From assembly GCF_000158175.1 (NCBI RefSeq), contig NZ_DS999411.1, positions 1,150,596 through 1,214,595 of the forward strand: DNA of 64,000 bases. The letters are read 5' to 3'. A program made the translations under genes and the position numbers. Numbering within the stretch: the stretch's first letter is position 1; every line of letters begins with the position of its first letter. Below, one piece after another: positions 4,762 to 28,972 of this stretch. The notes beneath the pieces are model-generated. The model searched no databases and was not told where the DNA came from. It worked only from the letters and a program-made list of their open reading frames with translations. This DNA is from Luminiphilus syltensis NOR5-1B. GTDB lineage: Bacteria > Pseudomonadota > Gammaproteobacteria > Pseudomonadales > Halieaceae.

Positions 4762-4955
4762 GTTGTGCGTCGAGGTTCGACGTTTCGGTGAATTTGCCGG
4801 TTTTGACCACAGAAACCTGAAATTTCTGCGTCAAAGTGTTCTTTTTGCACAGTTATATTGGCATGTAATGCCTATTAATGCTTAGTATACGGTAACAACA
4901 AGTCACGAGCGCTTAGAACTCGTGTTTGACTGGGGAAGGTTGTAGGGGCGCCAAT

Positions 4956-6020
4956 GTGTTCGGCCTGTTAGGAAAGCGTGGAAAAACGCAATTTCTTGCG
5001 ATCGATATTAGCTCGACGACCGTCAAGCTGCTGGAGCTCAGTCAGTCCAACGGACGGTACCGGGTGGAGAGCTTTGGTGTCGCATCGCTGCCTATCGACG
5101 CCGTGGTCGAAAAGGCTATCAATAACGTCGACGAAGTGGCCGTTGCGATTCGCAATGTGGTTAACCAGTCCCGTAGCAAAAACCGCCAGGTGGTTAGCGC
5201 TGTGGCGGGCTCTTCGGTGATCACCAAGACGATTCCAATGCCGATTGGTTTGAGCGACGAAGACATGGAAACCCAGCTTACCCTTGAGGCGGATCAGTAT
5301 GTGCCCTATCCCCTCGACGAAGTGGCTATCGATTTTGAAGTGCAGGGCCCTGTTCAGGGGCGCGAAGATCAGGTCAATGTGCTGCTCGCAGCCTGCCGCC
5401 GTGAGACTATCGATAGTCGTGTGGATGCGCTGGAACTCGCTGATCTAATGCCGAGGATTATCGATGTCGAGGCCTATGCCATGGAGCGGGCTTTTGAACT
5501 GGTGCGCACTCAGGCCGATATCGAAGAGCGGGCCACCGTGGCACTCGTGGATATTGGTGCCACCATGATGACGCTTTCGGTGCTGCATCGCGGGAATACG
5601 GTGTACACCCGAGAGCAGCTGTTTGGTGGCAAGCAGCTTACTGATGAAATCATGCGCCGCTACGGTCTGCCCCTCGATGAGGCGGGTTTGGCGAAAAAAC
5701 AGGGCGGCTTGCCCGATGACTACGAGACCGATGTGCTGGAGCCCTTTCTTGAGGCGGTGGTGCAGCAGGTCGGTCGGTCGCTGCAGTTCTTCTTTTCGTC
5801 GGGTGACTTCAGCAGTGTCGACGCCGTCTGCCTCGCCGGTGGTGTGGCAGCCATGGACGGATTGGCGGCGATGGTTGAGGAGCGCCTCAGTACGCCTACT
5901 TTTGTCGCCAACCCGTTTGCCGATATGACGGTGTCTCCGAAGGTAAACCTAGTAGCGCTCAATAGCGATGCCCCCGCCCTGATGATGGCCTGCGGGTTGG
6001 CTCTGCGGAGTTTCGACTAA
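4956..6020 (+). CDS. pilM: Type IV pilus inner-membrane platform protein PilM
   Basis: An actin-like cytoplasmic ATPase-fold protein of about 354 residues, first gene of pilMNOPQ. The segment DISSTTVKLLEL close to the start is the actin-like phosphate-1 loop typical of PilM. A TTG at 4926 would add ten residues. The GTG at 4956 is preferred because a purine-rich TAGGGG lies about 8 nt upstream and the product then begins with the family-typical FGLLGK. PilM binds the N-terminal tail of PilN and connects the pilus motor to the envelope complex. It overlaps pilN by one base. Confidence 0.93.
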   Translation: MFGLLGKRGKTQFLAIDISSTTVKLLELSQSNGRYRVESFGVASLPIDAVVEKAINNVDEVAVAIRNVVNQSRSKNRQVVSAVAGSSVITKTIPMPIGLSDEDMETQLTLEADQYVPYPLDEVAIDFEVQGPVQGREDQVNVLLAACRRETIDSRVDALELADLMPRIIDVEAYAMERAFELVRTQADIEERATVALVDIGATMMTLSVLHRGNTVYTREQLFGGKQLTDEIMRRYGLPLDEAGLAKKQGGLPDDYETDVLEPFLEAVVQQVGRSLQFFFSSGDFSSVDAVCLAGGVAAMDGLAAMVEERLSTPTFVANPFADMTVSPKVNLVALNSDAPALMMACGLALRSFD

Positions 6021-6595
6021 TGGCGCGCATTAACCTATTGCCCTGGCGCGAGGAGCTTCGCGCCGAGCGCAAAAAGCAGTTCACGCTCAACCTGGTCGGC
6101 GTTGCGATGGTGGCTGTGCTGGCGCTGGTCGGCGCAGACCGTCTGGAAAACAGCCGCATCGAGAACCAAAAGCAGCGTAATGCCTATCTCGAGCAAAACA
6201 TCGCTAAGCTCGATGAGAAGGTGGCGGAGATTCGCGATTTGCAGAAAAAGCGGGTCCAGTTGATCGAGCGCATGCGCATTATTCAGGAACTTCAGGGAAC
6301 CCGGCCGGTTATTGTGCGGATTCTTGACCAGCTCGTACGCACGCTACCCGATGGCGTTTTCTACACCGAGCTCACCACCGAGGAGGGAATGATCACCATT
6401 CAGGGCGTGGCCGAGTCCAACAACAGGGTTTCGAGCCTGATGCGGCGACTCGACGCTTCAGAGTGGCTTCAGGATCCCAACCTCGATGCGGTCGTTGCCG
6501 CGCCGGAATTCGGTGATCAGGCCGCGACGTTTACGCTGACCGTGGGTGTGCAGCTCGCGAAAGAGGGTGAAGCGAACGGGGAGTCCGACGCGTGA
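6020..6595 (+). CDS. pilN: Type IV pilus assembly protein PilN
   Basis: A 191-residue bitopic protein that begins MARINLLPWREE, the conserved PilN cytoplasmic tail that docks onto PilM. A single membrane segment (about 25–42) is followed by a coiled-coil stretch and a periplasmic ferredoxin-like domain. It forms heterodimers with PilO. The start overlaps the pilM stop (TAATG) and the end overlaps pilO by four bases, so translation is probably coupled. Confidence 0.95.
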   Translation: MARINLLPWREELRAERKKQFTLNLVGVAMVAVLALVGADRLENSRIENQKQRNAYLEQNIAKLDEKVAEIRDLQKKRVQLIERMRIIQELQGTRPVIVRILDQLVRTLPDGVFYTELTTEEGMITIQGVAESNNRVSSLMRRLDASEWLQDPNLDAVVAAPEFGDQAATFTLTVGVQLAKEGEANGESDA

Positions 6596-7206
6596 ACTTC
6601 CTCGAATCCCTCAAGTCGCTCAATGAGATCAGCCTGTCTGACCTGTCGCTCGATAACACGGGTAGCTGGCCTGCGCCGGTCAAGGTGTTTACGGGCATAC
6701 TGGTATTCGTGGCGATTGTAGTGGCCGGTTATTACTACCACCTCGAGAGCCTGGAAAACCAGCTGCGTCAGGTCGAGCAGACAGAGGTTGAGCTGAAGCG
6801 GGATTTTGAGAAGAAAGCGTTTGAAGCCGCAAACCTTGAGGCCTACAAAGCGCAGCTGATTGAAATGCAGGAAAGTTTCGGCGCTCTGGTAAGCCAGCTG
6901 CCCAGCGATACCGAAGTTCCGGGCCTTCTTGAGGATATTACCAACAAGGGTGAGGTAAATGGCCTCCAGATCGACAGCATTGATCTTCTGGATGAGCAAA
7001 AACAGGAGTTCTATATTGAGCTTCCGATCGAGATTAATGCGGTGGGCTCGTATCATGACCTCGGAGCCTTTATCAGTGGCATGGCCAGCCTGCCCCGAAT
7101 TGTGACCTTGCATGATTTTGAGATTGTCTCCCCCGGTGAACAAACACATCGCCTGGAGATGCGCATTCTCGCAAAAACCTACCGCTATCGGGACGATGAA
7201 GAATGA
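6592..7206 (+). CDS. pilO: Type IV pilus assembly protein PilO
   Basis: A 204-residue inner-membrane protein starting at GTG in a GTGA overlap with pilN. A cytoplasmic N-terminus of about 38 residues precedes one membrane helix (VFTGILVFVAIVVAGYYYH), then coiled coil and a periplasmic domain. PilO pairs with PilN and contacts the lipoprotein PilP to align the inner-membrane platform with the PilQ secretin. It overlaps pilP by four bases. Confidence 0.95.
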   Translation: MNFLESLKSLNEISLSDLSLDNTGSWPAPVKVFTGILVFVAIVVAGYYYHLESLENQLRQVEQTEVELKRDFEKKAFEAANLEAYKAQLIEMQESFGALVSQLPSDTEVPGLLEDITNKGEVNGLQIDSIDLLDEQKQEFYIELPIEINAVGSYHDLGAFISGMASLPRIVTLHDFEIVSPGEQTHRLEMRILAKTYRYRDDEE

Positions 7207-7748
7207 GCGGGTTCGTGAAATCGAAAACAACGGCGATACTGGCACTACTCGGCCCGGTTTTTTTGCTTTCTGGGTGTATGGGTAATGATATGAGGGACCT
7301 TGACGCGTTTATGGCCGAGAAGCTGGCGCGCCCGGGTGGGGTGATCCAGCCGGTACCCACTTTTCAGGCTTACGAGGCGTTTGCTTATTCGGCGACTACC
7401 CAGCGCAGCCCCTTTGATCGCCCGGTTGCGGTGAAGCTGGTTGCGGGCTTGCAAAGCGGTGCTGTGGTTCGTCCGGACCCCGATCGTCCCAGGCAATTTC
7501 TGGAGCAGTTTACGCTCGACTCCCTGCAGCTGGTGGGAGCGCTTGAACGCGATGGTAAGGACTGGAGTCTGATTAAAGACCCCGATGGTGGTATCCATCG
7601 GGTTCAGGTGGGTGAATATCTGGGGCGCGATCACGGCAAGATTGTAGAGACAACCGACACCTATGTGTCGGTTATCGAGATTGTGTCAGATGGAACAGCG
7701 GATGGCTGGGTTGAACGGCCCCGCACGATTGACCTGCTTGGGTCTTGA
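7203..7748 (+). CDS. pilP: Type IV pilus lipoprotein PilP
   Basis: A 181-residue lipoprotein with a type II signal peptide whose lipobox is LLSGC (Cys about 25). A disordered segment and a C-terminal beta-sandwich HR-like domain follow. PilP tethers the PilNO heterodimer to the periplasmic N0/N1 domains of PilQ. It starts in an ATGA overlap with pilO and is followed closely by pilQ, giving the standard complete pilMNOPQ operon. Confidence 0.94.
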   Translation: MSGFVKSKTTAILALLGPVFLLSGCMGNDMRDLDAFMAEKLARPGGVIQPVPTFQAYEAFAYSATTQRSPFDRPVAVKLVAGLQSGAVVRPDPDRPRQFLEQFTLDSLQLVGALERDGKDWSLIKDPDGGIHRVQVGEYLGRDHGKIVETTDTYVSVIEIVSDGTADGWVERPRTIDLLGS

Positions 7749-7758
7749 GGCGAGGGCG

Positions 7759-9891
7759 ATGGAGATGTCTGTGATGTTGAAAAGGACGATGGGCTATCTG
7801 GCTCTGATGGTCGGCTTGACTGCGGGGCAGACCGCGCTCGCGGATCCGGTCATAGAGGACATTACGTTTAGTTCCCAGCCGGGGGGGAAGTTCGAGATCA
7901 GACTCGACTTTAACGAGCCACCGCCGGTAGACCTTGATGCCTATACGATTGAGAAGCCTGCCCGCATAGCCATCGATTTTCCGGCAACACAAAGTGCTCT
8001 GGCGCAAAAACGGTATCCACTGTCGTTTGGTAATGCGACGGGCGTATTGGTACTTGAATCCGGTGATCGCACCCGGATGGTGGTGAATCTGGTCAAACTC
8101 GTTCCCTACGAGACCAGCGTTCGTGGCAACCAGCTTATTTTGCAGGTGGGCCAGGACAGTTCCGGCAGCTATGCGCAGACTTCAACCGCTGACGGCGTGT
8201 TGGAAACCCAGATGAATCGGGTAGCAAAGGTCGAATCAGAGATTACCGACCTGCAGTTCCGTCGCTCGGAGGAAGGCGAAGGCCGGCTGGTACTGACCTT
8301 GAGCAATGCCGCAGTAGATGTGAACGTGTTCAGCGAGGGTAGTCGTATTGCCCTCGAATTCCTCGATACCGCAGTGCCCGAATCGCTGCTGCGCAACTTC
8401 GATGTGACCGACTTCGCCACTCCGGTGACCTCCGTCGAGGTCAACACTACTGAGCGTGGCACCCGACTTCAATTAGCCGCAACGGGTTATTTTGATTATC
8501 TCGCCTACCAAACCGGCAACGAGTACATCCTGAGCGTCAAACCGCTGACCGAGAAAGAGAAGGAGGAGCTGGAAAGCGAGTTCAGTTACGTCGGTGATCG
8601 GATTTCGCTCAACTTCCAGGATATAGAGGTGCGAGCAGTGCTGCAGCTGATCGCCGACTTCACGGAACTTAACCTCGTTGCTTCGGATACCGTCGAGGGC
8701 AATATCACGCTGCGCCTCCAGAGCGTACCTTGGGACCAGGCGTTGGAGCTGGTACTGAAAACCCGGGGCCTGGATAGCCGGCAGATTGGCAATGTGCTCA
8801 TGGTGGCACCCGCGGAGGAAATTGCAGAGCGTGAGCGTCAGCAGGTGGAGGCCAATAAAACCATTGCGGAGCTGGCGCCCCTGCAGAACGAATTTATCCG
8901 TATTCGCTACGCCTCGGCCGAGGATATCGTTGAACTCCTGAAGGGAGACGCTGAGCTCACCGAGTCAGAGGGCGCCAGTCGGTCAATGGTGTCAGCGAGG
9001 GGTTCGATTAAATTCGACAAACGGACCAACTCCATCATTATTACTGACACGGCCGCAAATCTGGCGGCAGTCCGGGATCTGATTGAAAAGGTCGACATAC
9101 CTATTCGCCAGGTCATGATCGAAGCCCGAATTGTTATTGCCGACTCTGACCTCAACAACAGCCTCGGAGTGCGATGGGGTGGCGGCTATCTCAACCGGGG
9201 TAGCGACAGTATCACCTCGGTGGCCCGTGGCCTTGATGATGTTGCAACATTGAATACGCAGGCCATAGCAGGGGCAGGACTGTCTTATCCGGCGAATCCC
9301 CTGGTGGATCTGGGTATTGAAGAGGGCGGAAAAAGTGGTTTTGCCATAGGCTTTACCTCAAAGGATTTATTCCTGACGGCAGAATTGCAGGCACTCGAAG
9401 CTTCGGGTCAGGGTGAAATTGTTTCGCAGCCCAAGGTGATCACCGGCGATAAGCTGCCCGCCACCATCAAATCCGGTACTGAAATCCCCTACCAGGAAGG
9501 GGCGGCCTCAGGGGCAACCACGACCCAGTTTAAAGAAGCCGTGCTGAAGCTCGAGGTAACGCCCAATATCACCCCCGACGGTAGAATCCTGCTCGACCTG
9601 GTCATCAACCAGGACTCGGTGGGTGAAGAAGTCGGCACGCCCAATGGTGGCCGTATTCCCTCTATCGACACTACCGAACTGACGACCCAGGTACTGGTTG
9701 GTAATGGCGAAACCGTTGTACTGGGTGGCGTCTTCCAAAGCGATGAGCGCATAGATGTGAGCAAGGTTCCGGTGCTTGGTGATATTCCCTACCTGGGCAA
9801 TCTCTTCAAGAGTACGATTAAGCAGAGCATCAAGCAGGAAACCCTGATTTTCATCACGCCGCGGATTCTGTCGGACGCGCTGTTGGACTGA
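7759..9891 (+). CDS. pilQ: Type IV pilus outer-membrane secretin PilQ
   Basis: A secretin of about 710 residues. The signal peptide ends near TALADP. Two N-terminal AMIN domains (about 30–120 and 155–250) bind peptidoglycan. The N0/STN-like region DRISLNFQDIEVRAVLQLIAD, an N1 KH-like domain and the C-terminal secretin core (about 440–705, with VPVLGDIPYLGNLF) follow. It forms the gated pore through which the pilus passes. The ATG at 7759 is chosen over 7765, GTG 7771 and 7774. All give a plausible signal peptide, so the first few residues are uncertain. Confidence 0.95.
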   Translation: MEMSVMLKRTMGYLALMVGLTAGQTALADPVIEDITFSSQPGGKFEIRLDFNEPPPVDLDAYTIEKPARIAIDFPATQSALAQKRYPLSFGNATGVLVLESGDRTRMVVNLVKLVPYETSVRGNQLILQVGQDSSGSYAQTSTADGVLETQMNRVAKVESEITDLQFRRSEEGEGRLVLTLSNAAVDVNVFSEGSRIALEFLDTAVPESLLRNFDVTDFATPVTSVEVNTTERGTRLQLAATGYFDYLAYQTGNEYILSVKPLTEKEKEELESEFSYVGDRISLNFQDIEVRAVLQLIADFTELNLVASDTVEGNITLRLQSVPWDQALELVLKTRGLDSRQIGNVLMVAPAEEIAERERQQVEANKTIAELAPLQNEFIRIRYASAEDIVELLKGDAELTESEGASRSMVSARGSIKFDKRTNSIIITDTAANLAAVRDLIEKVDIPIRQVMIEARIVIADSDLNNSLGVRWGGGYLNRGSDSITSVARGLDDVATLNTQAIAGAGLSYPANPLVDLGIEEGGKSGFAIGFTSKDLFLTAELQALEASGQGEIVSQPKVITGDKLPATIKSGTEIPYQEGAASGATTTQFKEAVLKLEVTPNITPDGRILLDLVINQDSVGEEVGTPNGGRIPSIDTTELTTQVLVGNGETVVLGGVFQSDERIDVSKVPVLGDIPYLGNLFKSTIKQSIKQETLIFITPRILSDALLD

Positions 9892-23514: not shown

Positions 23515-24851
23515 CTCACAAAAGGTGTATACCGCAGACATGGTTTACATCTGATACCGGGCACATGGTTTACACCGTTGCCGGTAAAAAGGGATTGGTG
23601 GCGGGCTCGACCCTTCCACAATCCTCGTCAAAGAATCCTAGATCAAAATCCATAAAGCTGACCAGCCAAATTTTGTCAGCAACTTCGCGTACCCCCACGA
23701 CCTGACCGCTGAACACGATGCTGAGGTTGATCTTACGATGGCCCATGCAAATGCGTCCGCACTTGGTGACCTTCACAGCTTTGTCGTGGAATGGGTACAG
23801 GGGCTCTTCGGCAGGCCGGTATTCCCGCACAGAAGGTGTAAATACTTCTGCAGGATATTGCCCGCCAAGTGCCTGATGGGGCCTCTCGTTGTTGTAAACC
23901 TCTATAAATCTGTCGAAGCGACCCTGCTGTTGTAAGAAATTGAAGGAAGCAGGCTTCGTTGCTTCTTTCTTCAGTGTCAGATGCATACGCTCATGACGCC
24001 CGTTTTGCTCTGGGTGGCCTGGCTTGATGCGCTCAATGTTAATGCCTAGCTTAAGCCACCAGATTGACAGCCGGCTCAGTCCGAAGAATGCGTTGGGCGA
24101 GGCAAACGGGATGCCGTTGTCGGTCCGAATGGCCTGCGGCAAACCATACTCCTTGAAGGCGTGTTCGAAGACATTGAAGGCAAGTGCCGACTTGGTGGAG
24201 TCGAGGCCTTCGCAGGCTAGGAGATATCGTGAGCGATAGTCAGTGATCGTCAGTGGGTAACAGTACTGACGGTTACCCAGTAGAAACTCACCCTTATAAT
24301 CCGCACACCACAGCCCGTTCGGTACGGTAGCTTCACTCAGCGCTGTGCCCTGCGCTTTTCGGCGCCGACGCTTCTGGCGCTTTACCAGACCATTACGATC
24401 GAGAATGGCGTGCACCGTGCTCTTGGCCGGCGGATTCACCATCGGAAATTGCTTGATCAGCTTCTCTCGGATCTTGGGCGCGCCCCAGGACGGGTACTCC
24501 CGCTTGATCGCGAGAATTGCTCGCTCGATCTGAAACGGTAGTTTATTAGCATGCCTGTAGGGCCTTCGGCTCCGATCCTCGAGTCCCTTGGGGCCTAGCT
24601 CCTTGTATCGATTGTAGATCTTGTAGCCCGTGGGTCTGGAAATTCCAAACTCCTTGCAAAGGGCTGACATCTGCTCGCCATCAAGAAGACGAGCTACGAA
24701 CCTGAGTCGTTCATGCCCATAAACAGGGGCAGGCCCTCCATCGGTTTACACTCCTTCCACGGCATCGGGAGTCCTCCTCCAAATGCCTTAATGTGTAAAC
24801 CATGTCTCCGGTATATTGTGTAGCCTATGTCTCGCTACTCACAAAAAGGTG
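23515..24851 (-). mobile_element. IS481-like insertion element behind tRNA-Pro
   Basis: About 1.3 kb with one transposase gene. Its inner ends are imperfect inverted repeats: 23534–23575 on the left and 24793–24835 on the right. Both contain GACATGGTTTACA-type motifs. The left end carries that motif twice. Just outside are near-identical direct repeats, CTCACAAAAGGTG at 23515–23527 and a copy with one extra A at 24838–24851, probably the target duplication. Exact termini are uncertain by a few bases. Confidence 0.85.
23570..24670 (-). CDS. IS481-family-like transposase (5' end probably frameshifted)
   Basis: A 366-residue DDE transposase. An N-terminal helix-turn-helix (about 1–35, with FGISRPTGYKIYNRY) precedes an rve catalytic core whose acidic residues lie in WCADYKGEF, RTDNGIPFASP and NGRHERMH. 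Upstream, another frame encodes MPWKECKPM (ATG at about 24765), the usual family start. The current frame reads ERLRFVARLLDGEQM just before the listed ATG. About 23 extra bases between them break the frame. The listed start therefore may not be the original one, and the element may be immobile. Confidence 0.85.
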   Translation of the reverse strand: MSALCKEFGISRPTGYKIYNRYKELGPKGLEDRSRRPYRHANKLPFQIERAILAIKREYPSWGAPKIREKLIKQFPMVNPPAKSTVHAILDRNGLVKRQKRRRRKAQGTALSEATVPNGLWCADYKGEFLLGNRQYCYPLTITDYRSRYLLACEGLDSTKSALAFNVFEHAFKEYGLPQAIRTDNGIPFASPNAFFGLSRLSIWWLKLGINIERIKPGHPEQNGRHERMHLTLKKEATKPASFNFLQQQGRFDRFIEVYNNERPHQALGGQYPAEVFTPSVREYRPAEEPLYPFHDKAVKVTKCGRICMGHRKINLSIVFSGQVVGVREVADKIWLVSFMDFDLGFFDEDCGRVEPATNPFLPATV

Positions 24852-25348
24852 CTTTCTTGGCACATAGGTAACAGTTTATTCCGATGACAGACTTAACACT
24901 TTTTGAGCGAAGGTGTTCCACTACTGTCCGTCCCCACCTAACTGTTTGACCGAAGAATTGAACGCGATACGCTTTAAAACTGCTTCGGAGATACCCTTTC
25001 TTACCTTAAGAGCATAATTTCGACCCCGTCACAAAACGCGAAATCAAATCTTTTCTTTTGTTTGTTGTGGTGCTACGTTCGTTGGATTAGGTGCAGCGAA
25101 CGCACCGGCATTTTCTTCGTTACAGCAACAGAGGAAAAGGTGTAGCAGCCTTAGACAGTGGTGAAATTAACAGAGGGCCCTCATCATGCGCAGAAGCATT
25201 CGCGTTATGATAGATACGCATCCTTTGCAGGAAAGGCCCCATGACACCTGAAATTTCTCGTTTCTACTGCTTTTCTCGCCATCAACTGTCCCGCTTCACG
25301 GCCAGATCTGGCTGTAGAGTTCGCGCTCGACCCGTCGAAGGGGCCGCA
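24852..25348. other. Non-coding stretch between the IS and the pilin cluster
   Basis: About 500 bp, AT-richer than its surroundings, with no gene I can support. It probably holds the promoter of the minor-pilin operon. TATGAT at about 25206 could be a -10 box, but I see no convincing -35 or sigma-54 site. Confidence 0.5.
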
Positions 25349-25726
25349 ATGTGTCGCGCGACTCAATCGGGCTTCTCGCTGATAGAGTTACTTATCGCCG
25401 TTGCCATTGTTGGTATCCTCGCCGCCGTGGCTATACCGTCTTACCGGGCGCAAATTCAGGAATCGCGACGTTCCGCCGGGCAGACCGCGCTCCTGGAAGC
25501 TGCACAACTGGCGGAGCGGCAGTTCACAACGACCAACGCGTATACGGGTACTGATATCAGCGGCGTAGACGTTGAATTTTATACGCTCACTTTGCCAACC
25601 CTGACAGCGACCACGTACACCGTGAGTGCTGCACCTACTGGCCCGCAGGCGACTGACCCCTGTGGGACCATGACGGTAACCCATACCGGTGCGCGAACCG
25701 CCGGCGCTACGGATTGCTGGGATTAG
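25349..25726 (+). CDS. Type IV minor pilin, PilE-like
   Basis: A 125-residue prepilin from the ATG at 25349, with AAGGGG about 8 nt upstream (an ATG at 25241 would add an atypical leader). The PilD cleavage site lies after Gly8, giving mature FSLIELLIAVAIVGILAAVAIPSY with the conserved Glu5. Two C-terminal cysteines (DPCG and DCWD) form the usual D-region. The globular part is short, as in PilE minor pilins. It is the first of five prepilin genes. In Pseudomonas PilE is usually the last of the set. Confidence 0.88.
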   Translation: MCRATQSGFSLIELLIAVAIVGILAAVAIPSYRAQIQESRRSAGQTALLEAAQLAERQFTTTNAYTGTDISGVDVEFYTLTLPTLTATTYTVSAAPTGPQATDPCGTMTVTHTGARTAGATDCWD

Positions 25727-25728
25727 CC

Positions 25729-26220
25729 ATGCTGATGCCGCGCGCTTCACAGGGGTTTTCGCTGCTCGAGTTGATGGTCGTGATTATTGTGGTTGCGATC
25801 CTGCTTGCCATTGCCGCGCCTTCGTTCACCCGTTTTTTCGAAAGCAATCGCCTGAGCACCGCGGCAAACAGCTTGCTTTATCACCTCCAGCTTTCGCGCA
25901 GCGAAGCCGTGCGCTACGCCACCGATGTGACATTTTGTCCTAGCGCCGACGGCGCCGCCTGTTCCGGCGGTACTGACTGGACGGTTGGCTGGATCGTCAC
26001 CCGACCCGACCCGGCAAACCCTGCGTTGACGGATGTCTTGCGTGTTGCTCCTGCTGTTCAGGGCACGGTTGCCATTACCGGGGGTCCCACGTCCATCGTG
26101 TTTTCGCCGGTGGGGTCCGCCTCGAGCGCCAATACCTTTACGGTAACCGTGGGTAGCAGCAGTGACACCGTCTGTGTATATGTCGGCGGTATGGCGGCAA
26201 CCGGGAGTGGATGCCCATGA
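25729..26220 (+). CDS. GspH/FimT family pseudopilin
   Basis: A 163-residue prepilin. The leader ends at Gly9 and the mature protein begins FSLLELMVVIIVVAILLAIAAPSF with Glu5. The FESNRLSTAANSLLYHLQLSRSEAVRY segment after the helix is typical of FimT/FimU. The globular domain is GspH-like with a C-terminal cysteine pair. In other species FimU/FimT belongs to the priming complex at the pilus tip. FimT has also been linked to DNA binding in natural transformation. It starts 2 bp after the preceding stop. Confidence 0.88.
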   Translation: MLMPRASQGFSLLELMVVIIVVAILLAIAAPSFTRFFESNRLSTAANSLLYHLQLSRSEAVRYATDVTFCPSADGAACSGGTDWTVGWIVTRPDPANPALTDVLRVAPAVQGTVAITGGPTSIVFSPVGSASSANTFTVTVGSSSDTVCVYVGGMAATGSGCP

Positions 26221-26651
26221 TTGAGTCCAGGTTAGCGTTACAGCAGCGCGGTTTTACCCTGATGGAAGTGCTGGTGACGGTACTGATATTGTCCATCGGT
26301 CTGCTGGGTGCCGCGCAGATGCAGATCCAGTCACAGAAGTATTCCTACGCCAGTGCACAGCGTGCGCTGGCCATTGTTCAGGTCTCAGATTTGGCCGAGC
26401 GTCTGTGGAACGGTGCCTGTGATATTCAGGCCGATCCGGCTACCGCTTCTGCAGCCATTGTGACTGCGTGGGAAGCGGCCCATACGGGCGGCACGCTGGG
26501 CAGTTGGACGGGGGCGGCGACGCTGACCGGGACCACCGGCGATCCTTCTTTTCGCTTTGATATCACGGTGACGTGGCAGGATAACCGTTTCGATCTGAGT
26601 GAATCCCTCAGTCGAACCGTTGTCATTCCCAGCCTTGCGGGGTGTGTATGA
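26217..26651 (+). CDS. pilV: Type IV minor pilin PilV
   Basis: A 144-residue PilV-type prepilin. The start overlaps the previous stop (ATGA). Cleavage after Gly12 gives FTLMEVLVTVLILSIGLLGAAQMQIQSQK, characteristic of PilV, then a helix with LAERLWNG. The C-terminus ends in a cysteine. It is probably part of the tip-priming complex with the FimT-, PilW- and PilX-like proteins. It overlaps the next gene by four bases. Confidence 0.9.
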   Translation: MIESRLALQQRGFTLMEVLVTVLILSIGLLGAAQMQIQSQKYSYASAQRALAIVQVSDLAERLWNGACDIQADPATASAAIVTAWEAAHTGGTLGSWTGAATLTGTTGDPSFRFDITVTWQDNRFDLSESLSRTVVIPSLAGCV

Positions 26652-27706
26652 AAAAACGTAGAGCGCTAGATGTACTGGCAGCACTGAACGGCAAAGTTCA
26701 GAGAATTCGCCCGCAAACCGGGTTTACCCTTATCGAACTCATGGTTGCCATGGCGTTAGGGTTATTCATCATTTCTGGCGCGGTGGCCATGTTTCTGGCC
26801 AACCAGCAGTCAGCGGCGGTGAAACGCGATCTCGATAACGCGCAGGATGGCATCCGCTTTGCATCGCAAACAATCACCCGCGTGGTGCGTGAGGCGGATA
26901 ATCTGGCGGTAGCCGGCAACACCCTCACGGTCACCTATGATGGCGGTGCAGGGGTTCGCAATTGTTTGGGAGCGGTGGCTGGCGCCGGTTCAAATACAGA
27001 TGTATTCAGCGTGGTCGCGGGAGACCTCCAGTGTAACGGCGAGGTAATCACCCGCGGTGTGTCCGCGTTCACGGCTGCTTTGCTACCAGACAGCCTCGGT
27101 AACAACGTCAGTGTCCGCGTTACCCTCGGTATGGCGGGCTCGGCGCTAGCTACTGATTTCACTGCCACTGCGCGACCCATGGTGCTGAATCTGTATGCCG
27201 GCGTAGATCTGCAGGCGATTGCGGATGAATACGGAGTAACGGTAGACGATCTGACGCCAACTCCTGAGCCTAACCCAGACGATCCTCCCGTGGAGGAGCC
27301 TCCCCCGCCGGTCGAGCCTCCCGTGCCCCCTCTCGAGGACCCTGAGGATCCAGGCCCCATCAACCCTCCCGTTCCCGGGGATGTGTGCCCGACTGATCCT
27401 GGATCGGTTGTGTATAGCAATGAGTTTAGGCTGTGTGTCCAAAACCCGAGCGGAAATAACCTTTTGGCTTATCAGGAAGCAATTGATTTTTGTTCCAATA
27501 TAGGGAAGGCATTACCCACATTGGATCAGCTTCAGGGTATTTGCGCGGTTAGGGGCTCGTTGGGCGATTTTGGAGCAACTGTTTATTGGTCCAGCCAATC
27601 TCAAAATAGAAACTTCGCCCTATCGGTCGACTTTGACGATGGTTGCAGTTCGGGCCTTAGCGAAAAAGAAGGGAATTTCGAAGTCCGCTGTCTTACGGCG
27701 TACTAA
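26648..27706 (+). CDS. PilW-like minor pilin with C-terminal Lcl/DUF1566-like domain
   Basis: A 352-residue protein starting in an ATGA overlap with pilV. A 25-residue leader ends in Gly25, then FTLIELMVAMALGLFIISGAVAMFL with Glu5. A pilin-like globular part reaches about residue 200. A Pro/Glu-rich linker (about 203–245) leads to a roughly 105-residue C-terminal domain with six cysteines and the motifs ALPTLDQLQGIC, VYWSSQSQ and EVRCLTAY. These resemble the DUF1566/Lcl C-terminal fold, which is C-type-lectin-like. PilW proteins normally lack this tail. Its DNA is more AT-rich than the rest of the gene. Confidence 0.8.
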   Translation: MKKRRALDVLAALNGKVQRIRPQTGFTLIELMVAMALGLFIISGAVAMFLANQQSAAVKRDLDNAQDGIRFASQTITRVVREADNLAVAGNTLTVTYDGGAGVRNCLGAVAGAGSNTDVFSVVAGDLQCNGEVITRGVSAFTAALLPDSLGNNVSVRVTLGMAGSALATDFTATARPMVLNLYAGVDLQAIADEYGVTVDDLTPTPEPNPDDPPVEEPPPPVEPPVPPLEDPEDPGPINPPVPGDVCPTDPGSVVYSNEFRLCVQNPSGNNLLAYQEAIDFCSNIGKALPTLDQLQGICAVRGSLGDFGATVYWSSQSQNRNFALSVDFDDGCSSGLSEKEGNFEVRCLTAY

Positions 27707-27748: not shown

Positions 27749-28972
27749 ATGCAGGCATTCAGGAAACAGAGAGGAGCCGCGTTGGTTGTCAGTTTGATAT
27801 TGCTGGCAGTCGCTACTTTGGTCATCGTATACGGAATGCGCGGAACCAACTTACAGGAACGGATGACCGCCAACCAGAATAACAAGTCGATCTCCTTCGT
27901 TGCCGCCGAAGCCGGGGGCAGTGAGTTTCTGGGCTGGCTGGTCGCCGAGGACGACGCCGGCACAGTTGATTGGACCGATGCCACCTGGCAGGAGTCGTGG
28001 AAAACAGCAGTGGGCTTCACACTTCCCGACTCGCCGGTCACCACCGCCAGCATAGGTACTTATGGTGCGTATTATATCAGCGCCATAATCTGGGGCACCG
28101 ATGATGTGGTGGTAAACGTGACCGGTAACTCGCTCGGTGGCACGGACAGCGTGGGGCAGACAACGCTCCAACTTACTTACCAAAAGCCACAGCTATACAT
28201 ACCTCCCGGTCCGGGGCCGGCATTTGCAAAAGGCTTGCTGACGGAGGGCAGCATTACCGTGAACGGAACGTCGTCGTTCACCGGTAGTGCGCATGCTAAC
28301 GAGGCGTTTGACGGTAGGGGCGAACTGGTTGATCTCAATGACCTAGATGCCGAGGGCGAGCTGGTCCCCTACCCCTCTGATATCAGCGCATCGGGTACTG
28401 CAACGTTCAGTGGAGATGTGCCAGATGGAAGCACGATTGCAGATAGGGTTACATCTGATGCCGAGCCTTTTGACGTGCCCTCAGCGGCTGATTTCGTCAC
28501 AGATCATGGACTTAACGCCAGCCCCGATGCCGACGGCTTCACAGCGGCTATCGCGGCCTGCGAAATTCCGGATGGTGATGGATTGGGGCGGATGTACTAT
28601 TGCGATGGAGACGTCGACCTCGATCGTAACGCTAGTCATCAAAACGTGACGATTCTCGCAACGGGCAACATTACACAAAATGGCAGCAGTGATATTGGCG
28701 TGAATAACGCGCTTGACGTCGCCTTGGTCGCTGGTGGAGAGATAACCCTTAATGGCCAGACGGATACCTTTGGTGTGTTCTGGGCTGAGGGCGACGTTAT
28801 ACACAATGGTACTTCCACACTCACTGGTGCCGTGGTCTCGGGCGGCGATTTCACCAAAAACGGTGGACTGGCTTTTGTTCAATCCAAACGCTTCTCAGGC
28901 AATCTTCAATTACCTGACCCTGACCCGATCCCTGTTCCGCCTAGCATTCTTTCCTGGCGTGAGATTTACTGA
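27749..28972 (+). CDS. PilX-like minor pilin with long C-terminal domain
   Basis: A 407-residue protein. The N-terminus (RGAALVVSLILLAVATLVIVYGMRG, then LQERMTANQNNKSISFVAAEAG) is that of PilX, which lacks a classical prepilin cleavage motif. PilX is usually about 170–200 residues. Here about 250 extra residues follow. They include spaced VNGTSSFTGSAH, NITQNGSSDIG, ITLNGQTDTFG and VIHNGTSTLTGAVV segments that look like beta-solenoid turns, and then a Pro-rich tail. No pilY1 follows, so this tail or the PilW tail may supply the adhesive tip. That role is inference. Confidence 0.75.
   Translation: MQAFRKQRGAALVVSLILLAVATLVIVYGMRGTNLQERMTANQNNKSISFVAAEAGGSEFLGWLVAEDDAGTVDWTDATWQESWKTAVGFTLPDSPVTTASIGTYGAYYISAIIWGTDDVVVNVTGNSLGGTDSVGQTTLQLTYQKPQLYIPPGPGPAFAKGLLTEGSITVNGTSSFTGSAHANEAFDGRGELVDLNDLDAEGELVPYPSDISASGTATFSGDVPDGSTIADRVTSDAEPFDVPSAADFVTDHGLNASPDADGFTAAIAACEIPDGDGLGRMYYCDGDVDLDRNASHQNVTILATGNITQNGSSDIGVNNALDVALVAGGEITLNGQTDTFGVFWAEGDVIHNGTSTLTGAVVSGGDFTKNGGLAFVQSKRFSGNLQLPDPDPIPVPPSILSWREIY

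Follow-up and report, generated by a model that had tools for sequence, protein, structure and literature searches.

A five-gene minor-pilin row encodes a modular PilW-like pilin

One published answer to the open question of how simple pili come to bind new targets lies in 'modular' pilins, which carry grafted modules; few of their heads have been studied. A diderm instance of the problem is raised by a gene of the gammaproteobacterium Luminiphilus syltensis NOR5-1B, which was analysed in a window of 64,000 nucleotides (the whole stretch of DNA considered here, to which all positions refer unless another locus is named). The product of this gene begins as a type IV prepilin and ends in a domain of a different kind, and the question is what such a domain might do on a pilus. 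The locus offers a small, testable case, with one head, a flexible stalk, a compact pilin and no detected PilY1. The gene is the fourth of five pilin genes in a row. The first four overlap in succession, the stop codon of pilV and the start codon of pilW sharing an ATGA overlap, and the PilX_N pilin starts 42 bases later:

25241..25726, + strand: PilE/ComP-like minor pilin, first gene of the row (N_methyl; ComP_DUS PF16732, E 1.9e-20)
25714..26220, + strand: FimT/FimU-like (GspH) minor pilin (GspH PF12019, E 1.6e-17)
26211..26651, + strand: PilV minor pilin (TIGR02523, 52.6 bits, cut-off 52.2)
26648..27706, + strand: modular PilW-like minor pilin, 352 aa (ATG at 26648, stop codon ending at 27706)
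27749..28972, + strand: PilX-like pilin, 407 aa (PilX_N PF14341, E 1.3e-11)

A longer mechanical ORF of the PilW-like gene opens with GTG at 26642. Upstream of the minor-pilin row, at a distance of 0.6 kb, an IS481-like transposase gene (rve_3, HTH_32, LZ_Tnp_IS481) is encoded on the - strand (23570-24670). The PilW-like protein was divided into four parts, and a stand-alone pilin from another genome (G193) served for comparison:

26648..26722, + strand: class III leader, residues 1-25 (PF07963, E 1.1e-7; TIGR02532 over its cut-off)
26723..27250, + strand: compact PilW/GspJ-like pilin part, approximately residues 26-201 (similarity to the G193 stand-alone pilin)
27251..27376, + strand: Pro/Asp/Glu-rich linker, residues 202-243 (composition)
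27377..27703, + strand: Lcl_C-like, C-type-lectin-like domain, residues 244-352, with six cysteines (PF07603, AlphaFold2, Foldseek, VIA)
L514:2984-3538, genome G193: compact PilW-like pilin frame, 184 aa, without the graft

The prepilin N-terminus named in the original prediction was recovered as an N_methyl motif at residues 21-45 (PF07963, 31.5 bits, cut-off 21.2). The predicted cut falls before Phe26; the leader ends in the Gly of GFTLIE, and Glu stands at mature position 5. N_methyl was the sole Pfam family over its cut-off in the protein, and neither Pfam nor NCBIfam listed a PilW model at E values up to 1; 'PilW' is therefore a name given by gene order and local similarity. The pilin part is 30% identical to the 184-aa pilin of G193 over 126 columns (residues 22-144; BLASTP E 2e-17, in a single comparison), and an NCLG...CNG pair is common to the two. 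In a three-row alignment, the G193 pilin ends approximately where the PilW-like protein enters its linker, with little identity over the final third of the pilin region; the graft thus seems to follow a compact pilin of ordinary length. PilW-type ORFs of relatives match the N-terminal part only, by local similarity and among the matches listed. The linker had been described as Pro/Glu-rich, and of the 45 residues from 202 to 246, 20 are indeed Pro and 11 are Asp/Glu; its DNA is GC-rich (68%), and it has no Gly-x-y repeats and so no collagen-like stalk. Altogether, the protein is almost certainly a modular type IV pilin.

The position of this pilin was considered from its neighbours. The PilX-like pilin carries AALVV after its predicted cut, without Glu at predicted mature position 5. 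Published tip models for Vibrio cholerae and Streptococcus pneumoniae have the order PilX > PilV > PilW > FimT, and the capping PilX of the Vibrio and Streptococcus models also has no Glu5 (PMC12040237). Because the PilX-like neighbour resembles a capping PilX in this respect, and because of the gene order, the PilW-like protein was placed in the tip complex; by analogy with those complexes, it would probably sit at the pilus tip.

The C-terminal head is a divergent relative of the Lcl_C family

The C-terminal 109 residues (the head) carry the six cysteines (247, 263, 282, 299, 333 and 348) and the motifs LPT (289-291), YWSS (313-316) and VRC (346-348) from which a relationship to DUF1566/Lcl had been proposed. 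On the head alone, PF07603 (Lcl_C) matched residues 274-349 at E 0.0012-0.0013 with 19.5 bits; this is below the curated cut-off of 34.9 bits, and the head is for that reason termed Lcl_C-like here and not filed as a PF07603 member. The full-length protein gave no Lcl_C line against Pfam at E 1, a PF07603 search of the source genome at E 0.001 misses the head domain, and the NCBIfam models Lcl and LIC_10572 matched the head weakly, far below their cut-offs. The proposed relationship was upheld by a family profile built from 79 relatives without the head, whose rows came from a search that had started from the head domain: the head scored 38.6 bits, versus 10.0 bits for the best of 5000 residue shuffles and 4.6 bits for the highest-scoring ORF stretch elsewhere in the window. 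Compared profile to profile with nine Lcl_C-type domains, the match had an E of 6.6e-5 and a probability of 64%.

Single-sequence searches with the head reached a best E of 1.8 among PDB sequences; among the examined loci they found a protein of presumed Legionella jamestowniensis at E 7e-7 and several viral-contig proteins, and iteration of the search recruited the wider Lcl_C family. A five-sequence profile reached the Lcl structure 8q4e at E 2.7e-17; this match was discounted, being driven by the Legionella-type rows of the profile. LP, YWSS and VR are kept in the head. Other near-invariants of the family are replaced: the Trp of WxLP falls in an alignment gap (Lys by eye), the Glu of xxEL is Gln, and the last Arg is Thr; in the set used for comparison, the constancy of W, LP, E and YW largely reflects the DNA search patterns by which the set was collected. 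The head could have drifted, given these replacements. Judged by its sequence, the head is a divergent Lcl_C/DUF1566 relative.

The predicted structure resembles C-type lectins, and known ligand contacts are replaced

AlphaFold2 modelled the head at pLDDT 83.5 (below 60 in the first 20 residues) and pTM 0.76. The 80 rows of the input alignment were relatives from the family, which tips the model towards the family fold; the sequence evidence above stands apart from this model. In Foldseek the top match was the Lcl C-terminal domain (8q4e, E 1.7e-6, TM 0.73), followed by Bdellovibrio Bd2740 (8oks) and then by mannose-receptor and other C-type-lectin-like domains. VIA-align placed 8oks_B (Z 12.2; 102 residues aligned, 2.7 A) and 8q4e_A (Z 11.9; 101 residues aligned, 2.6 A) in a tie, with snake-venom, NK-receptor and other C-type-lectin domains at Z <= 10.7. 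These comparisons agree with the Lcl/C-type-lectin fold that the original prediction had proposed, and no unrelated fold was encountered. As modelled, the head probably carries a lectin fold. A full-length single-sequence model had a pLDDT of 42.7 and was not used. Cys282 lies in the first helix of the head model and Cys348 in its last short strand, a placement that we take to be that of the canonical C-type-lectin bridge. A Cys282-Cys348 bridge is not claimed, as the co-occurrence of the two cysteines in relatives gives it no support (Fisher p 0.37).

The Ca2+/sugar motifs of C-type lectins are EPN or QPD, and WND. No EPN/QPD or WND was seen in residues 244-352; EPN occurs in the linker only. 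Glycosaminoglycan contacts of Lcl have been reported at Arg342, Lys369, Lys380, Lys385 and Lys391 (PMC11162425), and in the head, aligned by hand to the Lcl chain, these five are replaced by Leu, Gln, Asp, Ser and Glu/Gly. The head is also acidic, with 13 Asp/Glu vs 6 Lys/Arg. The Lcl and Bd2740 heads are described as trimers without Ca2+ sites (PMC11162425, PMC10769870); a PilW of a tip complex is expected in a single copy, unlike these trimeric heads. Of the sugar- or surface-binding module first proposed, the lectin fold was thus borne out at the level of a predicted structure; sugar binding, however, was not, as the domain has other residues at the Lcl contacts, is rich in acidic residues and shows no Ca2+ motif. 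A sugar is a doubtful ligand for the head.

Among the loci examined, the graft was found on this pilin only

Lcl_C domains are common, being present in 48 of the 196 genomes of the same genus, family and order at E 0.001 and in 129 of 369 genomes of the class at E 1e-4. No orthologue with the graft was found. Among the 196 genomes (own included), the head matched itself only at E 0.01; the full protein matched relatives in its pilin part, among the matches listed, and a contig scan with the full protein yielded no confirmed relative. Ten same-genus loci that match the PilW-like protein hold open frames of 308-405 aa without the head, the G054 frame being interrupted by a stop. It had been anticipated that the tail would not be general to PilW homologues, and it is absent from the other PilW-type ORFs examined. 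When the source genome was searched with the family profile, the one match was the head itself (13 of 20 first-look candidates scored).

In the class sample, the head matched in 53 of 369 genomes (own included) at E 1, most of the others by chance. The best of the other matches (E 4e-7) falls in presumed Legionella jamestowniensis, on a surface-type protein of 573 aa that is not a pilin and whose tail is the closest relative of the head that was found (35% over head residues 44-103). At this locus (L139:3800-4195), the protein of approximately 573 aa has a repeat-like middle and an Lcl_C-type tail. No other Lcl_C-type ORF starts as a prepilin among 527 ORFs at 368 loci (344 of the ORFs from viral contigs, some places counted twice) and 44 ORFs at 30 further loci, sets in which the matches from the Lcl_C and family-profile searches are represented in part; the prepilin test looked for a pattern near the frame start and required Glu5, so that PilX-like pilins would escape it. 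Conversely, among 135 prepilin-like ORFs examined, the head domain occurs only in the PilW-like pilin (four overlapping copies of one place), and all other Lcl_C-like domains among the examined loci belong to non-pilin ORFs.

Other Lcl_C proteins were seen at same-genus loci (L040-L042, L044-L046, L060 and L061), either two-domain proteins of approximately 670-840 aa or proteins of approximately 190-200 aa; at least one has a lipoprotein-like start, and neither type was found in the source genome by the family profile. Domains of the Lcl_C/YWSS type are very common in uncultivated viral contigs (L141-L380), with at least 120 matches in each of two DNA-pattern scans. The head matched no plasmid at E 1 in 72,556 records, and its three phage matches are weak (E 0.5-0.7).

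An expected retractile pilus without a detected PilY1

The window also holds pilus assembly genes:

4926..9891, + strand: type IVa pilus assembly genes, PilM and the secretin PilQ included
4926-6020, + strand: PilM (TIGR01175, E 9.4e-116)
7663-9891, + strand: PilQ secretin (TIGR02515, E 2.5e-149)

In the source genome, a single contig of 3.26 Mb that is 99.8% complete, three PilT-family ATPases score above the curated cut-off; together with PilM and PilQ, they lead one to expect a type IVa pilus that retracts. A profile search of this genome for the PilY1 family (PF05567) gave zero matches. Fourteen control genomes were silent for PF05567, and relatives served as the control instead: among 97 genomes searched, the source genome being one of them, 53 had a match to the family, including 20 of 56 same-genus genomes and seven of the ten same-genus genomes that match the PilW-like pilin (G004, G005, G007, G041, G043, G049 and G053). 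PilY1 was likewise undetected in 36 of the 56 same-genus genomes, many of those incomplete, and a divergent PilY1 could be missed, because the PilY1 scores of same-genus genomes are low.

The reading preferred here, with a probability of roughly 60%, is that the protein is a modular PilW-like minor pilin that shows a binding head at or near the pilus tip. Its pilin part would undergo the processing and incorporation usual for minor pilins and form one subunit of a FimT-PilV-PilW-PilX tip (priming) complex, and the acidic Pro-rich stalk of approximately 45 residues would hold the head away from the shaft. Disulphides probably brace the head, which would serve as an adhesin at or near the tip; retraction would pull on bound particles, algal or bacterial surfaces, or polymers, and the head might partly stand in for the undetected PilY1. 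The tip position is argued from homologous complexes and the adhesive function from the role of the same fold in Lcl and Bd2740; on this analogy, adhesion is somewhat favoured as the function of the head. A wider suggestion, that PilY1 was lost and that tip adhesion moved to the minor pilins, namely to the C-type-lectin head of PilW and the large C-terminal region of PilX, is offered tentatively.

Structural, DNA-uptake and recent-graft explanations

A structural head is the alternative that fares best, and it is rather unlikely. The head would then stabilise or cap the tip complex, for example via the C-terminal region of PilX, or prime assembly as PilY1 does, with no binding of anything outside. 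Such a role would suit a genome in which PilY1 was undetected, a head with no recognisable ligand site, and a PilX-like neighbour that also has a long extra C-terminal region (274 aa, with no Pfam family over cut-off, best E 0.04, and no PDB sequence, best E 0.6); in Lcl, moreover, the DUF1566 part is reported to give trimer contacts as well (PMC11162425). A 45-residue acidic Pro-rich linker, however, would be an odd design for a rigid cap, and the grafted modules reported as tested, PilB (vWA) and PilC (lectin) of S. sanguinis, were shown to bind ligands (PMC8179133, PMC9934059).

The row could instead encode a DNA-uptake (competence) pilus, in which the head or the C-terminal region of PilX helps to catch DNA, as has been proposed for ComZ. 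A ComP_DUS-family pilin heads the row, the extra domain of ComZ is reported to bind DNA and is argued to lie at the tip (PMC6561018), and minor-pilin tip complexes are described as binding DNA in competence pili (PMC12040237). The acidity of the head speaks against this role, as does the FimT-like pilin (25714-26220): the DNA-binding FimT of competent diderms is described with a C-terminal G-[R/K]-X-[R/K] motif (PMC12040237), which the FimT-like pilin lacks, since there is zero Lys/Arg among its last 58 residues. A competence pilus is therefore improbable here.

The head DNA had been described as AT-rich, and this was found: positions 27383-27706 have 47.2% GC (third positions 47.2%) vs 57.8% for the window, and five of 493 pieces of 324 nt are as low in GC (overlapping pieces from a greedy ORF set of the window, those of the gene itself included). 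That the tail is a recent acquisition through recombination, borne without a settled function thanks to its terminal place on the pilin, is the least probable of the three, for although the AT-rich DNA, the lack of any head relative but itself at E 0.01 in the 196 genomes and the transposase gene upstream would fit, the frame, the six cysteines, LP, YWSS and VR are all intact, and a transfer is not datable from base composition alone. DUF1566 domains are of the kind targeted by diversity-generating retroelements (DGRs). A DGR-diversified adhesin was considered and set aside, because no second copy of the head DNA was found in the genome beyond a match of 21 bases at 90%.

Comparison of the modular pilin with known systems

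The reported number of modular pilins exceeds 1,200, spread over 264 architectures, and modular pilins act as adhesins in the S. sanguinis system (PMC8179133, PMC9934059). Like S. sanguinis PilC and PilB, the PilW-like protein joins a pilin to a grafted C-terminal module that is not specific to pili and is predicted to lie at the tip (PMC8179133, PMC9934059). The S. sanguinis heads are described as a vWA domain (PilB) and an Ig domain with a concanavalin-like lectin (PilC), whereas the head here has a predicted C-type-lectin fold and sits on a PilW-like pilin of a diderm. The C-terminal domain of Lcl (8q4e) matches in fold and has LP, YWSS and VR in common with the head. Lcl itself is described as a secreted trimer with a collagen-like stalk and no disulphides, in which basic residues bind glycosaminoglycans (PMC11162425); the head differs in being carried on a pilin stalk, in its six cysteines, in its acidity and in its contact residues, which are not kept. 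Bdellovibrio Bd2740 (8oks) likewise has a Ca2+-free C-type-lectin head, which there ends a surface fibre; unlike the PilW-like pilin, Bd2740 is described as a trimeric MAT fibre for predation (PMC10769870). PilY1, the tip adhesin of diderm type IVa pili, is a proposed effector presented by the minor-pilin tip complex (PMC9934059), as the head would be; PilY1 itself, unlike the PilW-like protein, is a non-pilin.

As far as the literature search shows, an Lcl_C-like C-type-lectin head on a PilW-like pilin, with no detected PilY1, seems to be new. IPR011871 we take to be the FISUMP domain, which presumably has a similar YWSS-like motif. The main text of PMC8179133 names IPR011871 and contains no DUF1566, PF07603 or IPR011460; the full list of 264 architectures may include the present one, and if IPR011871 is FISUMP, pilins with a related fold may have been described before. 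If PilY1 was indeed lost and tip adhesion moved to the minor pilins, as tentatively suggested above, this would be the first known type IV pilus tipped by a pilin with a C-type-lectin fold, and among diderms a counterpart of the S. sanguinis tip, which has modular pilins and no PilY1. An adhesive head would link the C-type-lectin heads of Lcl and Bd2740 with pilus tips and would suggest that minor pilins can replace PilY1 outside monoderms; a head that binds nothing would show that folds are easily tolerated at the pilus tip.

A further likeness is to ComZ of Thermus thermophilus, which is a large pilin with an extra domain and an argued tip position (PMC6561018); unlike the grafted head, the extra domain of ComZ is described as a DNA-binding beta-solenoid within the pilin framework (PMC6561018). 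The C-terminal region of the PilX-like neighbour has repeated short strands and is beta-solenoid-like by eye, and may be compared with ComZ. Among the PilX matches listed for relatives, nearly all are open frames of approximately 150-250 aa, vs 407 aa here.
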